In this document: piece by piece, positions 32,205 through 35,430 of the stretch
How the letters are laid out: each line of letters starts with the position of its first letter
Position numbering within the stretch: position 1 is the first letter of the stretch
Source of the DNA: Candidatus Altimarinota bacterium
GTDB lineage: Bacteria; Patescibacteriota; Gracilibacteria; UBA1369; UM-FILTER-53-11
Direction of reading: 5' to 3'
DNA length: 36,210 nt
Assembly: GCA_018061065.1 (NCBI GenBank)
Contig: JAGOUV010000012.1
Coordinates: 9,191 to 45,400, forward strand
Notes under the pieces: generated by a model
Databases searched by the model: none
Told to the model about the DNA's origin: nothing
The model's input: only the letters and a program-made list of their open reading frames with translations
Made by a program: the position numbers and the translations under genes

Positions 32205-33119
32205 TTAAAGTACAGCTAAAGCACCCACCACCCTCTCAATCTCATTCTTCGATCCCAGATAAATCGGCGTCCTTTGGTGCAGCTCCGTTATTGGCTTGCT
32301 CAAGACACGTTGGCTACCATCACTCGCGGCGCCACCGGCCTCTTCCATGATGAGCGCAAAGGGCGCAGCCTCAAACAAAATACGCAGCTTTCCCTGTGGT
32401 GCCTCACTGTATCCCGGATAGACAAACACGCCCGAACCTTTCAGGAAAATATGATTCACGTCCGGCACCATACCGCCCGAATATCGTAGCGTTAATTTTC
32501 GCTTCATCCACTCCGTCATCAGCGCAACATAATCCGCACGCTCACTGGCCGCACGCAAATTTCCCGGGGCAAAATACTTAGACTCCTCCGCAACTTTTAA
32601 ATTTTCTTTTCTCAAATAAAACTCACCATCTTTTTCCAAGCGAAATTCATGCACACCATTTCTCAAAGTTAAAACAAACGTCGTGCGCGGACCATAGACC
32701 GCATAACACGCCGCGAGCTGATCATCGCCGGTTTTTCCCAGCGCACTGCCTACCGCATAAACACCAAAAATCGAACCCACCGCCATATTCACATCCACCA
32801 GTGACGAGCCATCGAGCGGATCGAAGACCACGGTAAAGGGCGGATTATTTTGATCGTACACCACCTCATTTTCCAGCTCTTCGGAAGCCATGTGGCCAAC
32901 TAACTTAGACTCACCGAGCGTATCAATCACAATCTGATTTGCGCGCACATCGAGCGCCAGCTGCTGCTCCCCAGACGAGTTCATACTCCCCGCCATCCCC
33001 TGCACGTCTTCCTCAATCACCATCCTAACTTTCTTGACCGCCTCGGGAATTATTTTTCCCATCAGAGTAACTAAATCTGCATCAGTACAATTTTTCGTGA
33101 GAAAGTCGTGGAGTTTCAT
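32205..33119 (-). CDS. fbp: Fructose-1,6-bisphosphatase class I
   Basis: 304 aa. It hydrolyses fructose-1,6-bisphosphate to fructose-6-phosphate, the committed step of gluconeogenesis, in the cytoplasm. Motifs seen are ASEELENEV near 99, the metal-binding FDPLDGSSLVDVNMAVGSIFGVY near 117, YSGGMVPDVNHIFLKGSGVFVYPG near 214, LRILFEAAPFALIMEEAGGAASDG near 245 and HQRTPIYLGSKNEIERV near 281. Length is slightly short of the usual 330 aa, mainly at the N-terminus (MKLHDFLTKNCTDADL). The -10 TACAAT ends 6 nt before the ATG, so the mRNA is predicted leaderless. The matching aldolase is encoded about 1.2 kb away, in the same direction. Confidence 0.96.
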   Translation of the reverse strand: MKLHDFLTKNCTDADLVTLMGKIIPEAVKKVRMVIEEDVQGMAGSMNSSGEQQLALDVRANQIVIDTLGESKLVGHMASEELENEVVYDQNNPPFTVVFDPLDGSSLVDVNMAVGSIFGVYAVGSALGKTGDDQLAACYAVYGPRTTFVLTLRNGVHEFRLEKDGEFYLRKENLKVAEESKYFAPGNLRAASERADYVALMTEWMKRKLTLRYSGGMVPDVNHIFLKGSGVFVYPGYSEAPQGKLRILFEAAPFALIMEEAGGAASDGSQRVLSKPITELHQRTPIYLGSKNEIERVVGALAVL

Positions 33120-33125
33120 AAGCTC

Positions 33126-33154
33126 ATTGTAGATCTGATTGCGGAATTACTCAA
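33126..33154 (-). promoter_or_regulatory. Promoter of fbp, leaderless arrangement
   Basis: Minus strand TTGAGT (33154-33149), exactly 17 bp, TACAAT (33131-33126), 6 nt (GAGCTT), ATG 33119. Overlaps the promoter of the divergent 79-aa gene. Confidence 0.8.
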
Positions 33155-33167
33155 AAAAATGTATAAT
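33139..33167 (+). promoter_or_regulatory. Promoter of the 79-aa gene
   Basis: TTGCGG (33139-33144), exactly 17 bp, perfect TATAAT (33162-33167). Expected start near 33174, giving a 35-nt A-rich leader without Shine-Dalgarno. The -35 lies within the spacer of the fbp promoter. Confidence 0.75.
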
Positions 33168-33208
33168 GGCCAGAAATCCTTTTCTAAATTTTTAAAACAA
33201 AAACAAAT

Positions 33209-33448
33209 ATGAGTATCGATACAATTAAGTTGGCAGATGGAAGTCACGTCTATGAGGCGATCATCGATGAGGATCCGGTGACGGCTCGACTCAATGTGAA
33301 GAGTTTGTATAATCTTGATGCGGCGGCGGTGCGCTCATGCCAGGGAAAGACTGCAGACCAGGCACGGGAAATCTTGCTGAACATTGGACGCGAGGAAATT
33401 GATAACCTGGCTTTTGAAGGAAACTTTGCAGAGGAGTTAGCTGCATAG
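33209..33448 (+). CDS. Small acidic protein of unknown function, 79 aa
   Basis: Not recognised. MSIDTIKLADGSHVYEAIIDEDP looks like a beta hairpin and the remainder is helical (DAAAVRSCQGKTADQAREILLNIGREEIDNLAFEGNFAEELAA). It has a single Cys (near 44) and no membrane segment. It has its own strong promoter and an A-rich leader. The C-terminal AEELAA resembles tmRNA-tag endings, but the balanced composition over 79 codons argues for an ordinary protein. It could be a small regulator or a chaperone-like helical protein; no basis to choose. Confidence 0.7.
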   Translation: MSIDTIKLADGSHVYEAIIDEDPVTARLNVKSLYNLDAAAVRSCQGKTADQAREILLNIGREEIDNLAFEGNFAEELAA

Positions 33449-33470
33449 GGTACTTCAAAGCTTTATATAG

Positions 33471-33488
33471 TTCGCCGTCGACGGTGAA
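33471..33488. repeat. Near-perfect 18-bp palindrome
   Basis: TTCGCCGTCGACGGTGAA: a perfect CCGTCGACGG core with TTC/GAA arms and one G/T step on each side. It lies 23 nt after the stop of the 79-aa gene and has no T-run, so it is not a standard terminator. Possible operator or RNA hairpin. Confidence 0.7.
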
Positions 33489-33531
33489 TTACGCAGGTAT
33501 TTTGCCGTATGACAAAATTGTTATATTTAAG

Positions 33532-33560
33532 TGTGCACGTGCACATGTATGTTCATACAT
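33532..33560. repeat. Two abutting palindromes, the second followed by T5
   Basis: TGTGCACGTGCACA (33532-33545, perfect 14 bp) abuts ATGTATG-TT-CATACAT (33545-33560), sharing base 33545; TTTTT runs from 33560 to 33564. The second may end transcripts of the 79-aa gene, though its stem is weak. The first could be an operator dyad. Confidence 0.65.
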
Positions 33561-33596
33561 TTTTCATAATTATTTCATCAGGCGTTCATTTTTGTT

Positions 33597-33605
33597 TGCT
33601 ACGAT
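33597..33605 (+). promoter_or_regulatory. Extended -10 promoter for the tRNA-like RNA
   Basis: TGC followed by TACGAT (33600-33605). The predicted +1 is 33612, the exact first base of the outer closing helix of the RNA. No clear -35. Confidence 0.45.
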
Positions 33606-33611
33606 TTTCGA

Positions 33612-33708
33612 GCTAGAAATGGATGGGTTTGACCCTGGTGGGTATGCGAAAACTTGACACTTTTGCCTCGGGGTTCGATTCCCCGCAGATCCACCACCCA
33701 TCTCTAGC
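33612..33708 (+). ncRNA. tRNA-like / tmRNA-3'-domain-like RNA with encoded CCA
   Basis: A perfect T-arm (CGGGG-TTCGATT-CCCCG, 33669-33685) is followed by CAGATCC, discriminator A and CCA (33686-33696). GGGTTTG (33625-33631) pairs along all 7 positions with CAGATCC (two G-U). Between them are a 4-bp hairpin (ACCC-TGGT-GGGT) and a 6-bp hairpin around ACTTGACAC. There is no canonical D-arm, no proper 7-nt anticodon loop and no long variable arm. GGGTTTGAC fits the tmRNA D-loop signature GGNTTYGAC, but no tag frame or pseudoknots separate the halves. An outer helix, GCTAGA-ATGG-TGG (33612-33626) against CCA-CCAT-TCTAGC (33694-33708), with two A/C mismatches, encloses everything. Promoter and terminator fit this unit. 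It may be a divergent tRNA, a decayed tmRNA or a new tRNA-like small RNA. Confidence 0.55.
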
Positions 33709-33782
33709 AGTCAAAGAAAAGACCCTCGGTTATTACACCTTGGGCCTTTTTCTTATTTGGTAGGCGAAAACTTGACGCTTTT
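33641..33782 (+). repeat. 24-bp direct repeat pair flanking the RNA 3' domain and terminator
   Basis: GGTA[TG]GCGAAAACTTGAC[AG]CTTTT occurs at 33641-33664 and 33759-33782, 22 of 24 identical, starts 118 bp apart. The first copy is the central hairpin of the tRNA-like RNA; the second lies just after its terminator. Confidence 0.85.
33717..33752. terminator. Bidirectional intrinsic terminator
   Basis: AAAAG-ACCC-TCGG (33717-33729) pairs with CC-TT-GGG-C-CTTTT (33738-33750) with small internal mismatches. It gives CCTTTTTCTT on plus and GGGTCTTTTCTTT on minus. It ends the tRNA-like RNA (plus) and can serve the 152-aa gene/aldolase operon (minus). Confidence 0.8.
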
Positions 33783-33840
33783 ATTATATCAAATTTCAAC
33801 AAAAAGTCTAATATAAATCGCTTCTGCCTGCGCTCTTCGG

Positions 33841-34299
33841 CTAAAACTCCTTAATCTTTACCTGTGAGGGATTTAGCAATTTTTTAATACTATCTGTCTG
33901 GTCGAAATCAAAAGCTAAAGAATTTTTCTCCATAAGTTTTTTTGCCTTGGCTAAGGTAGTCTGATCAAACAAACCATCGGCTGGGCTATCGCCTACTTTT
34001 TTCTGAAGATCTTTTACCGCGTCTATAAAAGTAAGCGTCATCGTTGCATTTTCTGGAACATTTAGCAGACTACAGAGGACTGTTTTATCGATAGTACCCT
34101 TATCAAACAACTCTTGCTGAGCTTTGATAATGTTGTTATCGGGAGAGGGAAATTCAAAATTGGTGAGACCACGGTTAACGGCAGCATCTCCTTGATCTAA
34201 AAGAGTGCCATCAGGACCAAATTCACGTATCGTTGTTTTTGACTTGGAACCATCGGCTGTTTCTGGAGTTTTTTCACCTCCTGCGCTTGGATTTGCCAT
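33841..34299 (-). CDS. Small protein with a peptidoglycan-binding-like C-terminal segment, 152 aa
   Basis: The N-terminus (1-60) is polar and disordered-looking (MANPSAGGEKTPETADGSKSK). Residues about 90-130, FIDAVKDLQKKVGDSPADGLFDQTTLAKAKKLM, follow the PG_binding_1 pattern (AVxxLQxxxGxxxDGxFxxxTxxA), though there is no signal peptide. It could be cytoplasmic, with the match reflecting only a three-helix fold. It follows the aldolase gene by 18 nt on the same strand, so it is probably co-transcribed. The assignment is tentative. Confidence 0.6.
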   Translation of the reverse strand: MANPSAGGEKTPETADGSKSKTTIREFGPDGTLLDQGDAAVNRGLTNFEFPSPDNNIIKAQQELFDKGTIDKTVLCSLLNVPENATMTLTFIDAVKDLQKKVGDSPADGLFDQTTLAKAKKLMEKNSLAFDFDQTDSIKKLLNPSQVKIKEF

Positions 34300-34317
34300 A
34301 ATATAGGTGATTAAATA

Positions 34318-35355
34318 TTAATATAGATCGCTCTTCCCCGCAGACATGAAGGCTTTCTCCATCATCATTTTGACGTGGTCTTTTACCGCTGCCTCACCCT
34401 CGCGGTGATCGAGCTTCTCCACCTCTGACAAAAAGTGATTCAAGACATAACGGCGTGGCTTGCCCTTTTCTTTTGCAAACACATCCATCTGATCCAAGAG
34501 TGTCTGTGGGAAATATTTAAACCAAATATCAGACAACGCCGTCGCGTAGTTAAACTTGCGTGCACCATTTTCAATCGCACGGTTGAAGTCACTTGGCGTC
34601 AGACCAGAACCTCCATGCAACACACCGTACGCACCCATTGGTCGTGCCATGTCCGTAATCTCACGAATGCGATCCCAACCAATCAACGGTGCCTCCAAAT
34701 ACACCCCGTGACCATTTCCCACAAAGAACGAAATCGCCTCCGGTCGAACAGCCTCCACCAACTTCTGCGCATCTTCGAGCTTGGTATAGTAATTTGAAAT
34801 ATTCTGTTTAATTTCTGGATCAGCCAATGCAGAAGCGGCACCCACCTCACCTTCCTCAATCTCAAGTGAAATTCCGAGTGGATGAACTTTTGTAATTACT
34901 TCAGTACACTTGGCAATATTTTCAGCGAGCGGCTTCTCAGAAAGATCTACCAAGAGCGAAGAAAAACCTGCCTCGATCGTGCGCTGCATGCATCCGTCGA
35001 CATCTTTTTTAATATGATCGTGGTGCAAAACAACCGGAACGCTATAACCAAATTCTGCGATCATCGCCTCGATTCCATCGTGAGTTAGATCAGAGAGACG
35101 AGCGGGCGGCATCTCACAATATCCCACTTCAGACTCCGCGATCTCCAAAATCACCGGTGACTTCACCTCCCACGCTGCGCGCAACACCGCATTCAAAATC
35201 CACTTTGAGCGAATATTACATGCCACGACACCAAACTTGTGCTGGTCGGCAACAGTCAAAATAGGTTTCAAATTTGAGACGCGATAGCCGTTTTTCAGAG
35301 TGCGTACATGAGGATTCACATCGGGGGTAAAGGGAGCGAGAGCAGGAATGGACAT
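34318..35355 (-). CDS. fba: Class II fructose-bisphosphate aldolase
   Basis: 345 aa from ATG 35355; the open frame extends to a GTG at 35412, but the family normally begins near MSIPALAPFTPDV. It splits or forms fructose-1,6-bisphosphate from DHAP and glyceraldehyde-3-phosphate using Zn. Seen: GVVACNIRSKWILNAVLRAA, VPVVLHHDHIKKD with Zn-binding His and the catalytic Asp, SLEIEEGEVG, FFVGNGHGVY, GVLHGGSGL (third Zn His) and KFNYATAL. Some of these, such as HHDH for HTDH and NYATAL for NIDTDL, show it is a divergent member. Its co-product enzyme FBPase is encoded nearby. Probably an operon with the 152-aa gene. Confidence 0.93.
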   Translation of the reverse strand: MSIPALAPFTPDVNPHVRTLKNGYRVSNLKPILTVADQHKFGVVACNIRSKWILNAVLRAAWEVKSPVILEIAESEVGYCEMPPARLSDLTHDGIEAMIAEFGYSVPVVLHHDHIKKDVDGCMQRTIEAGFSSLLVDLSEKPLAENIAKCTEVITKVHPLGISLEIEEGEVGAASALADPEIKQNISNYYTKLEDAQKLVEAVRPEAISFFVGNGHGVYLEAPLIGWDRIREITDMARPMGAYGVLHGGSGLTPSDFNRAIENGARKFNYATALSDIWFKYFPQTLLDQMDVFAKEKGKPRRYVLNHFLSEVEKLDHREGEAAVKDHVKMMMEKAFMSAGKSDLY

Positions 35356-35430
35356 AGAGACAAGGGTTAGAGAGATACAAAATACGCGGAAAGGATAATG
35401 AATCGCTCGCACCCATGAAATTAAAGTATA

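Follow-up and report, generated by a model that had tools for sequence, protein, structure and literature searches.

A candidate family of paired RNAs in Patescibacteria: a tRNA mimic with alanine identity and its predicted cognate antisense RNA

The window, a 36,210-nt stretch of the genome of a Candidatus Altimarinota bacterium, contains a small tRNA-like RNA (RNA A) and an adjoining predicted antisense RNA (RNA B), which very probably represent a new family of paired RNAs. To judge from its sequence, RNA A probably accepts alanine, and we see an even chance that the pair as a whole is an RNA-only toxin-antitoxin-like or addiction module, in which an alanine-accepting, probably non-decoding tRNA mimic would be unfolded by its antisense RNA. 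The original prediction of a new tRNA-like regulator at this site was sound as to a new, self-contained and conserved tRNA-like RNA gene, but it missed the multi-copy family, the G3:U70 pair and the cognate antisense RNA.

The core of RNA A occupies 72 nt of the plus strand (33625–33696), as delimited by a covariance model, R1, built without the query. Its acceptor consists of seven base pairs between 33625–33631 and 33686–33692, in which the R1 alignment pairs G3 (33627) with U70 (33690), and the acceptor 3′ strand (33686–33696) continues, by direct reading, into A73 and an encoded CCA, giving ACCA at 33693–33696. At 33632–33643, the R1 alignment further places a small D-type hairpin (ACCC-TGGT-GGGT), whose loop contains the conserved GG. 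The long anticodon-like arm at 33644–33668, with the loop CTTGACA at 33653–33659, is delineated by the same alignment together with family loop statistics and covariation, while the 5-bp T-arm with the loop TTCGATT (33669–33685) is placed by both the RF00023 and the R1 alignments. Upstream on the same strand, an extended −10 promoter, TGCTACGAT (TGC TACGAT), is directly readable at 33597–33605, and the fold contains an outer helix whose 5′ strand is the leader (33612–33624, predicted +1 near 33612) and whose 3′ strand is the trailer (33697–33708). A terminator hairpin, predicted by folding at 33714–33753 and followed on either strand by a T-rich tail, would serve the convergent RNAs A and B in common. 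The extended −10, outer helix, acceptor, T-arm, CCA and hairpin with T-rich tail that were originally listed are thus all present where they had been placed; as to the intrinsic terminator, the hairpin near 33714–33753 and its T-rich tail stand (fold z −2.65), but a strict terminator scan of the window did not flag it. The predicted transcript (33612–33752, 141 nt) folds with −51.7 kcal/mol (z −4.0), and none of 200 shuffles does as well. The arm of the window RNA is imperfect, with one A-C and one T-C mismatch, and the core folded alone adopts a competing acceptor pairing. Further upstream, at 33531–33560, lies an AT-rich imperfect palindrome, gtgtgcacgtgcacatgtatgttcatacat, a possible regulator site.

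ARAGORN made no tRNA or tmRNA call anywhere in the window, and Rfam at gathering thresholds returned no match; in line with the original prediction, no standard tRNA or full tmRNA is called over the interval. The best sub-threshold Rfam match is the tmRNA family RF00023, with 29 bits against a gathering cut-off of 47, and the alignment covers the tRNA-like domain alone, skipping 328 model positions, which together with the 72-nt core agrees with the earlier remark that there is no room for a messenger part. At such a score, and with a core that has neither message domain nor tag ORF, RNA A was rejected as a tmRNA. The suggestion of a shrunken tmRNA comes down to a likeness of the acceptor/T-arm half: a message part is missing, and the genome has its own full tmRNA (G000:C27:18661–19060). 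A canonical elongator tRNA was likewise rejected: neither ARAGORN nor Rfam detects a tRNA here in the window, the arm has 9–10 bp rather than the 5 bp of an anticodon stem, the variable loop is absent, and C37 is found in 58% of members. ARAGORN calls just 13 of 98 distinct family cores, with haphazard isotypes (tRNA-Arg, tRNA-Asp, tRNA-Leu and others), and databases probably carry family members as false tmRNA or tRNA genes. Two relatives, L069 (G002:C51:4180–4249) and L070 (G058:C6:90123–90192), exceed the RF00023 gathering score, with 53 and 47 bits, respectively.

A message-free mini-tmRNA, which would be charged with alanine, bind SmpB and release or tag peptides on stalled ribosomes until switched off by RNA B, is a different proposal, which we consider improbable. 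RF00023 is indeed the best match among known covariance models, two relatives pass its gathering score, and G3:U70, a D-loop without a normal D-stem, the T-arm and CCA are shared with tmRNA. However, a coding part is lacking, the same genome encodes a full tmRNA, and the arm has diverged from one pair to the next, a diversity for which a general rescue factor would have no use.

The family came to light in an RF00023 search of 59 relatives, which gave many extra matches of only 70–74 nt. Twenty of these, read with their flanks, are not ordinary tRNAs and share a plan: an acceptor GGGGnnn...nnnCUCC-ACCA, a 3-bp D-type hairpin with a GG loop, a 5-bp T-arm, no variable loop, and an arm of 9–10 bp with a 7-nt loop, which often reads CUUGACA as in the window. 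The model R1 was derived from nine RNAs, all from other genomes, with the window sequence left out; a subset was used since MAFFT, applied to all members, put the 5′ acceptor strand in the wrong place, and the members were later realigned to the model. Against the window, R1 finds exactly the RNA A interval as its sole match (48.7 bits, E 2.9e-9). With membership defined by a length of 68–74 nt and about 47 bits or more, which excludes by length ordinary tRNAs of 76–77 nt (these reach about 54 bits), R1 places the family in about 48 of the 89 genomes searched from the order, among the matches listed, with one to about six members per genome. A second model, R2, made from 100 members, was searched over 380 Patescibacteria genomes: of the 17 that represent the window's order, 10 carry the family, and in other classes its presence is patchy, amounting to about 18 genomes. 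Among named genomes, a pattern scan found the family in Candidatus Peregrinibacteria/Peribacteria, and R1-scoring tRNA-like relatives in Acidobacteria, Acidimicrobiia, Chloroflexi, Verrucomicrobia, Planctomycetes, Gemmatimonadota, Proteobacteria and some viral contigs; no similar phage records were found.

Some of these distant relatives have features of their own. In Acidimicrobiia, related mini-tRNA-like genes (L197, L202, L234, L217, L211, L189) have no evident antisense partner, and their loops include CUCUAAA, which would put CUA at the anticodon; downstream of those in L197, L202 and L234 comes another tRNA-like unit, which is degenerate (GGAGGCGC...GCGCCTCC in L197). The viral contigs L264, L265, L266, L274, L277, L278 and L279 carry tRNA-Ala genes whose D region is short and aberrant (GGGGTATGCGCAGGG...TTTGCAAGGA); these genes match the family pattern yet look like true decoding tRNAs.

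The compensatory changes among relatives by which the original prediction proposed to judge the stems are abundant. The nine-member alignment, made by MAFFT alone, contains 49 double-change cells against 13.6 in shuffles, and the 100-member alignment A6, which is fitted to the model but with which the MAFFT-only alignment agrees, contains 722 against 207. In A6, 94.5% of cells are paired, compared with 42–60% when the partners are slid by one to three columns, and all stems covary, the long arm included. The leader and trailer form a helix of at least 8 consecutive pairs in 49% of members and in 12% of swapped pairs. Upstream of the members, the strongest motif 10–36 nt before the core is TG.TATAA; no distinctive −35 or alternative-sigma motif was seen there, the signal being weak and the extended −10 alone clear.

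Among the most constant features of the core are those expected of an alanine acceptor. G3:U70 is an identity element of alanyl-tRNA synthetase, AlaRS (PMC7609411); it is present in 99 of 100 members, as is A73 (33627:33690 and A33693 in the window), so RNA A has both features of an alanine-accepting tRNA-like RNA. Acceptor pairs 4–7, unlike the near-invariant G3:U70, show many compensatory types. The GG of the D-loop is found in 100/100 members and C74C75 in 92/100. The arm loop is U-turn-like, with U33 in 85% and A38 in 92% of members. C37, found in 58% of the loops, and the lack of a variable loop argue against normal decoding. The 9–10-bp arm could stand in for the D-stem and anticodon stem that are normally stacked, so that an L shape of normal reach is plausible.

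An alanine identity on so unusual a body could also mark an accessory Ala-tRNA that gives its alanine outside translation, to FemABX-type wall bridges or lipid aminoacylation, with RNA B setting its level. FemAB proteins do occur in the order, including the window's genome; however, they are found in 54 of 59 relatives irrespective of RNA A, while G041 has RNA A and no FemAB match. Several orthogonal A–B pairs per genome would not be needed by such a donor either, and the neighbouring genes are unrelated to the wall. This explanation is therefore unlikely, and the wall-synthesis tRNA put forward at the outset gains no positive support from the distribution of FemAB.

On the minus strand of the window, at about 33778–33712, the sequence reads as a second transcription unit, which the original prediction overlooked. 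A promoter scan identified TAGACT, a 16-nt spacer and TATAAT, with TG before the −10, at 33810–33783 on the minus strand; with 10 of 12 matches it is the only sigma-70-like promoter in 33450–33840 (shuffled regions average 1.0). The predicted product, RNA B, is an antisense RNA of about 67 nt (33712–33778, minus strand), delimited by repeat, promoter and fold, with its 5′ end near 33778 and its 3′ end in the shared terminator. Its 5′ segment (33759–33778, minus strand), mostly unpaired in the predicted fold, is complementary to RNA A at 33641–33660, the two sites forming a direct repeat in the DNA with 18 of 20 positions identical. This A/B repeat is the locus's second-best match genome-wide (24 nt at 92%).

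Beside almost every family member, there is likewise a second copy of the arm 5′ strand and loop, oriented so that its transcript would be complementary to RNA A. The arm matches its own flanks with a score of at least 12 at 72% of loci, compared with 0 of 600 mismatched arm–flank pairs, and with at least 9 at 96%, compared with 7%. Among ordinary tRNAs called by ARAGORN as a control, 3 of 29 had an arm repeat of at least 12, and these are probably neighbouring duplicate tRNA genes. A TAnnnT box (mostly TATAAT), searched for within 18 nt before the complement, ends 0–8 nt before it at all 91 loci scoring at least 10, against a background of 23%, and a terminator hairpin comes next at the loci that were read. 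Taken together, the own-flank repeat, the box and the hairpin argue for a second transcription unit, RNA B, which is recognised at 91 of the 100 family loci. It lies on the opposite strand downstream, mostly convergent with a shared terminator (65 loci), divergent upstream (13) or in tandem downstream (13). At tandem loci such as L102, L110 and L118, the −35 of RNA B apparently falls inside the acceptor 3′ strand of RNA A (TTGCCTCCACC), about 18 nt before TATAAT, the A gene and the B promoter thereby overlapping. Ten loci were taken from other Patescibacteria classes, two of which (L298, L303) were left unscored; all eight scored loci have RNA B in the tandem layout, and L299, L300, L301, L302, L305, L307 and L310 are independent among them, L308 repeating the L218 element. 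Outside Patescibacteria, a B match occurs at L218, L224 and the viral contigs L261, L267 and L271, but most A-like RNAs have no RNA B nearby, which suggests that RNA A may also have a B-independent role.

Direct repeats, and an islet set between the FBA and FBPase genes, might also point to the ends of a mobile element or to recombination sites, or RNA A might be a tRNA or tmRNA fragment at an attachment site. Such an origin is very improbable: the repeat is antisense, lies just past a −10 box and occurs in three different layouts, the stems covary, and the genome has no second copy of the core. In its simple form, the mobile-element or attachment-site reading is refuted by the stem covariation and the co-variation of RNAs A and B.

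The pairing of RNAs A and B is well supported by their sequences and is specific to cognate partners. The predicted A–B duplexes have a mean of −40.9 kcal/mol compared with −20.6 for swapped pairs, and in the 20 genomes with at least two pairs the cognate RNA B is the strongest predicted binder in 62 of 63 within-genome tests (−38.4 vs −19.7). In G062, for example, the arm GAAGCCCGTTTCGTCA has its match in TGACGAAACGGGCTTC, and the arm GAGAACATTTTCGTCA in TGACGAAAATGTTCTC. Many B RNAs match the D-hairpin as well, as in L299 (TTGTCACC), L302 (TACCAAGG) and L132 (AAGCTGC), so that RNA B would undo the elbow as well as the arm. A U-turn-like loop (U33 85%, A38 92%) exposed as in antisense RNAs, and arm sequences that diverge between paralogues, could equally belong to a trans-acting antisense RNA that takes a tRNA guise for stability and targets mRNAs with its arm loop, RNA B being a sponge or decoy. 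We think this quite unlikely, as the near-invariant G3:U70 and A73 would be left unexplained and the complementary site found is the adjacent B unit, the only type of site covered by the search.

In the window, RNAs A and B lie together with two orphan ORFs in an islet of about 1.2 kb (33120–34317) between the genes for FBPase (32205–33119) and FBP aldolase (34318–35412), which in the relatives L284, L288 and L290 are spaced by 31–139 nt. RNA A is present at just one of the 12 FBPase loci searched, that of the window, and an FBPase scan of a genome-contig collection found no relatives. The orphan ORFs, at 33209–33448 on the plus and 33841–34299 on the minus strand, match no Pfam family and have no good PHROG match; a homologue of the latter was found in 0 of 59 relatives. 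Across the family, the neighbours are mostly diverse housekeeping genes with no partner gene common to most loci, and no mobility genes were seen at the loci scanned. About nine A–B loci (L142, L153, L124, L165, L169, L081, L094, L100, L074) are flanked, sometimes on both sides, by proteins of about 550 aa of unknown function, one of which has weak treble-clef zinc-finger matches.

A possible mode of action would be as follows. RNA A would be made from 33612 to about 33750 and matured to 33625–33696, yielding a minimal L-shaped tRNA with a G3:U70/A73 acceptor, T-arm, CCA and a single 9–10-bp arm that replaces the D-stem/anticodon-stem stack, where the GG of the tiny D-hairpin could dock into the T-loop. 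AlaRS would probably charge RNA A, which would then enter the translation machinery, although not as a normal tRNA. The free 5′ end of RNA B would pair with the loop and the arm 5′ strand of RNA A, at many loci also with the D-hairpin, and RNA A would thereby be unfolded or its processing blocked. RNA A may hamper translation by tying up AlaRS or EF-Tu or by filling the A site, or it may cause alanine to be misincorporated; RNA B would restrain it, and upon loss of RNA B the inhibition of translation would set in.

By analogy, we give a toxin-antitoxin-like function of the pair a chance just short of even. An RNA-only module of this kind is considered the most likely reading because the layout matches that of par/Fst in its convergent promoters, shared terminator, direct repeats and U-turn-like loop; the patchy presence of the family and the islet inside a conserved gene pair also count for it. 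More tentatively, the pairs may form a new class, in which a non-decoding alanyl-tRNA mimic poisons or reprograms translation and is silenced by a cognate unfolding antisense, an RNA-only addiction module with many mutually orthogonal specificities across Patescibacteria and with kin among the solitary tRNA-like RNAs of other phyla and of phages. The family is common in one order belonging to a major bacterial radiation, the biology of which is poorly known. Should RNA A carry alanine and be kept in check by RNA B, an antisense RNA would control an effector shaped like a tRNA, and stray tRNA-Arg, tRNA-Asp, tRNA-Leu or tmRNA annotations in these genomes would be explained. The many self-matched but mutually non-matching A–B pairs make the question directly testable.

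The A–B family is apparently undescribed: no Rfam family covers RNA A, and no description was found in the open-access papers searched. With tmRNA (RF00023), RNA A shares the GGG..TCC acceptor with G3:U70, a D-loop without a normal-size D-stem, the TTCGA T-loop and CCA, but it has no message domain or pseudoknots and a single closed hairpin instead. MascRNA (RF01684; sub-threshold, 23 bits) is likewise a small tRNA-like RNA with an acceptor, a T-arm and other arms reduced; it is, however, a eukaryotic processing product and is not known to have an antisense partner of the RNA B kind. Allo-tRNAs (Mukai et al. 2017, reviewed in PMC7609411) are bacterial, have abnormal cloverleafs and diverse anticodons, some of them with G3:U70, and for some a link to toxin-antitoxin systems or transposons has been guessed. 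Their acceptor/T stems are of the 8/4 or 9/3 type and their variable arm is long (PMC7609411), whereas RNA A has a 7/5 arrangement, no variable loop, a 3-bp D-hairpin, a 9–10-bp arm and a dedicated antisense RNA.

Among toxin-antitoxin systems, the type VIII systems such as CreTA would resemble the A–B pair in that both partners are RNA. CreT toxins act on the tRNA supply, the CreT studied being a mini-ORF with rare codons, and CreA represses creT transcription through CRISPR effectors (PMC8501985). In contrast, the predicted pairing of RNAs A and B is RNA to RNA, and RNA A mimics a tRNA. The type I system par_pAD1/Fst has convergent promoters, a bidirectional terminator, direct repeats that make its RNAs complementary, and a U-turn (PMC7472228); convergent units, a shared terminator and complementary repeats recur in the window and at most family loci, although tandem and divergent layouts also occur in the A–B family. 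While RNA I of par_pAD1 encodes a peptide toxin, RNA A is a tRNA mimic with no evident ORF, very short ORFs aside, and its 72-nt core is fully taken up by the covarying fold. By analogy of architecture, the A–B pair resembles a par-type module; should RNA A prove toxic, the pair would join the RNA-only (type VIII) systems as a variant not described before.
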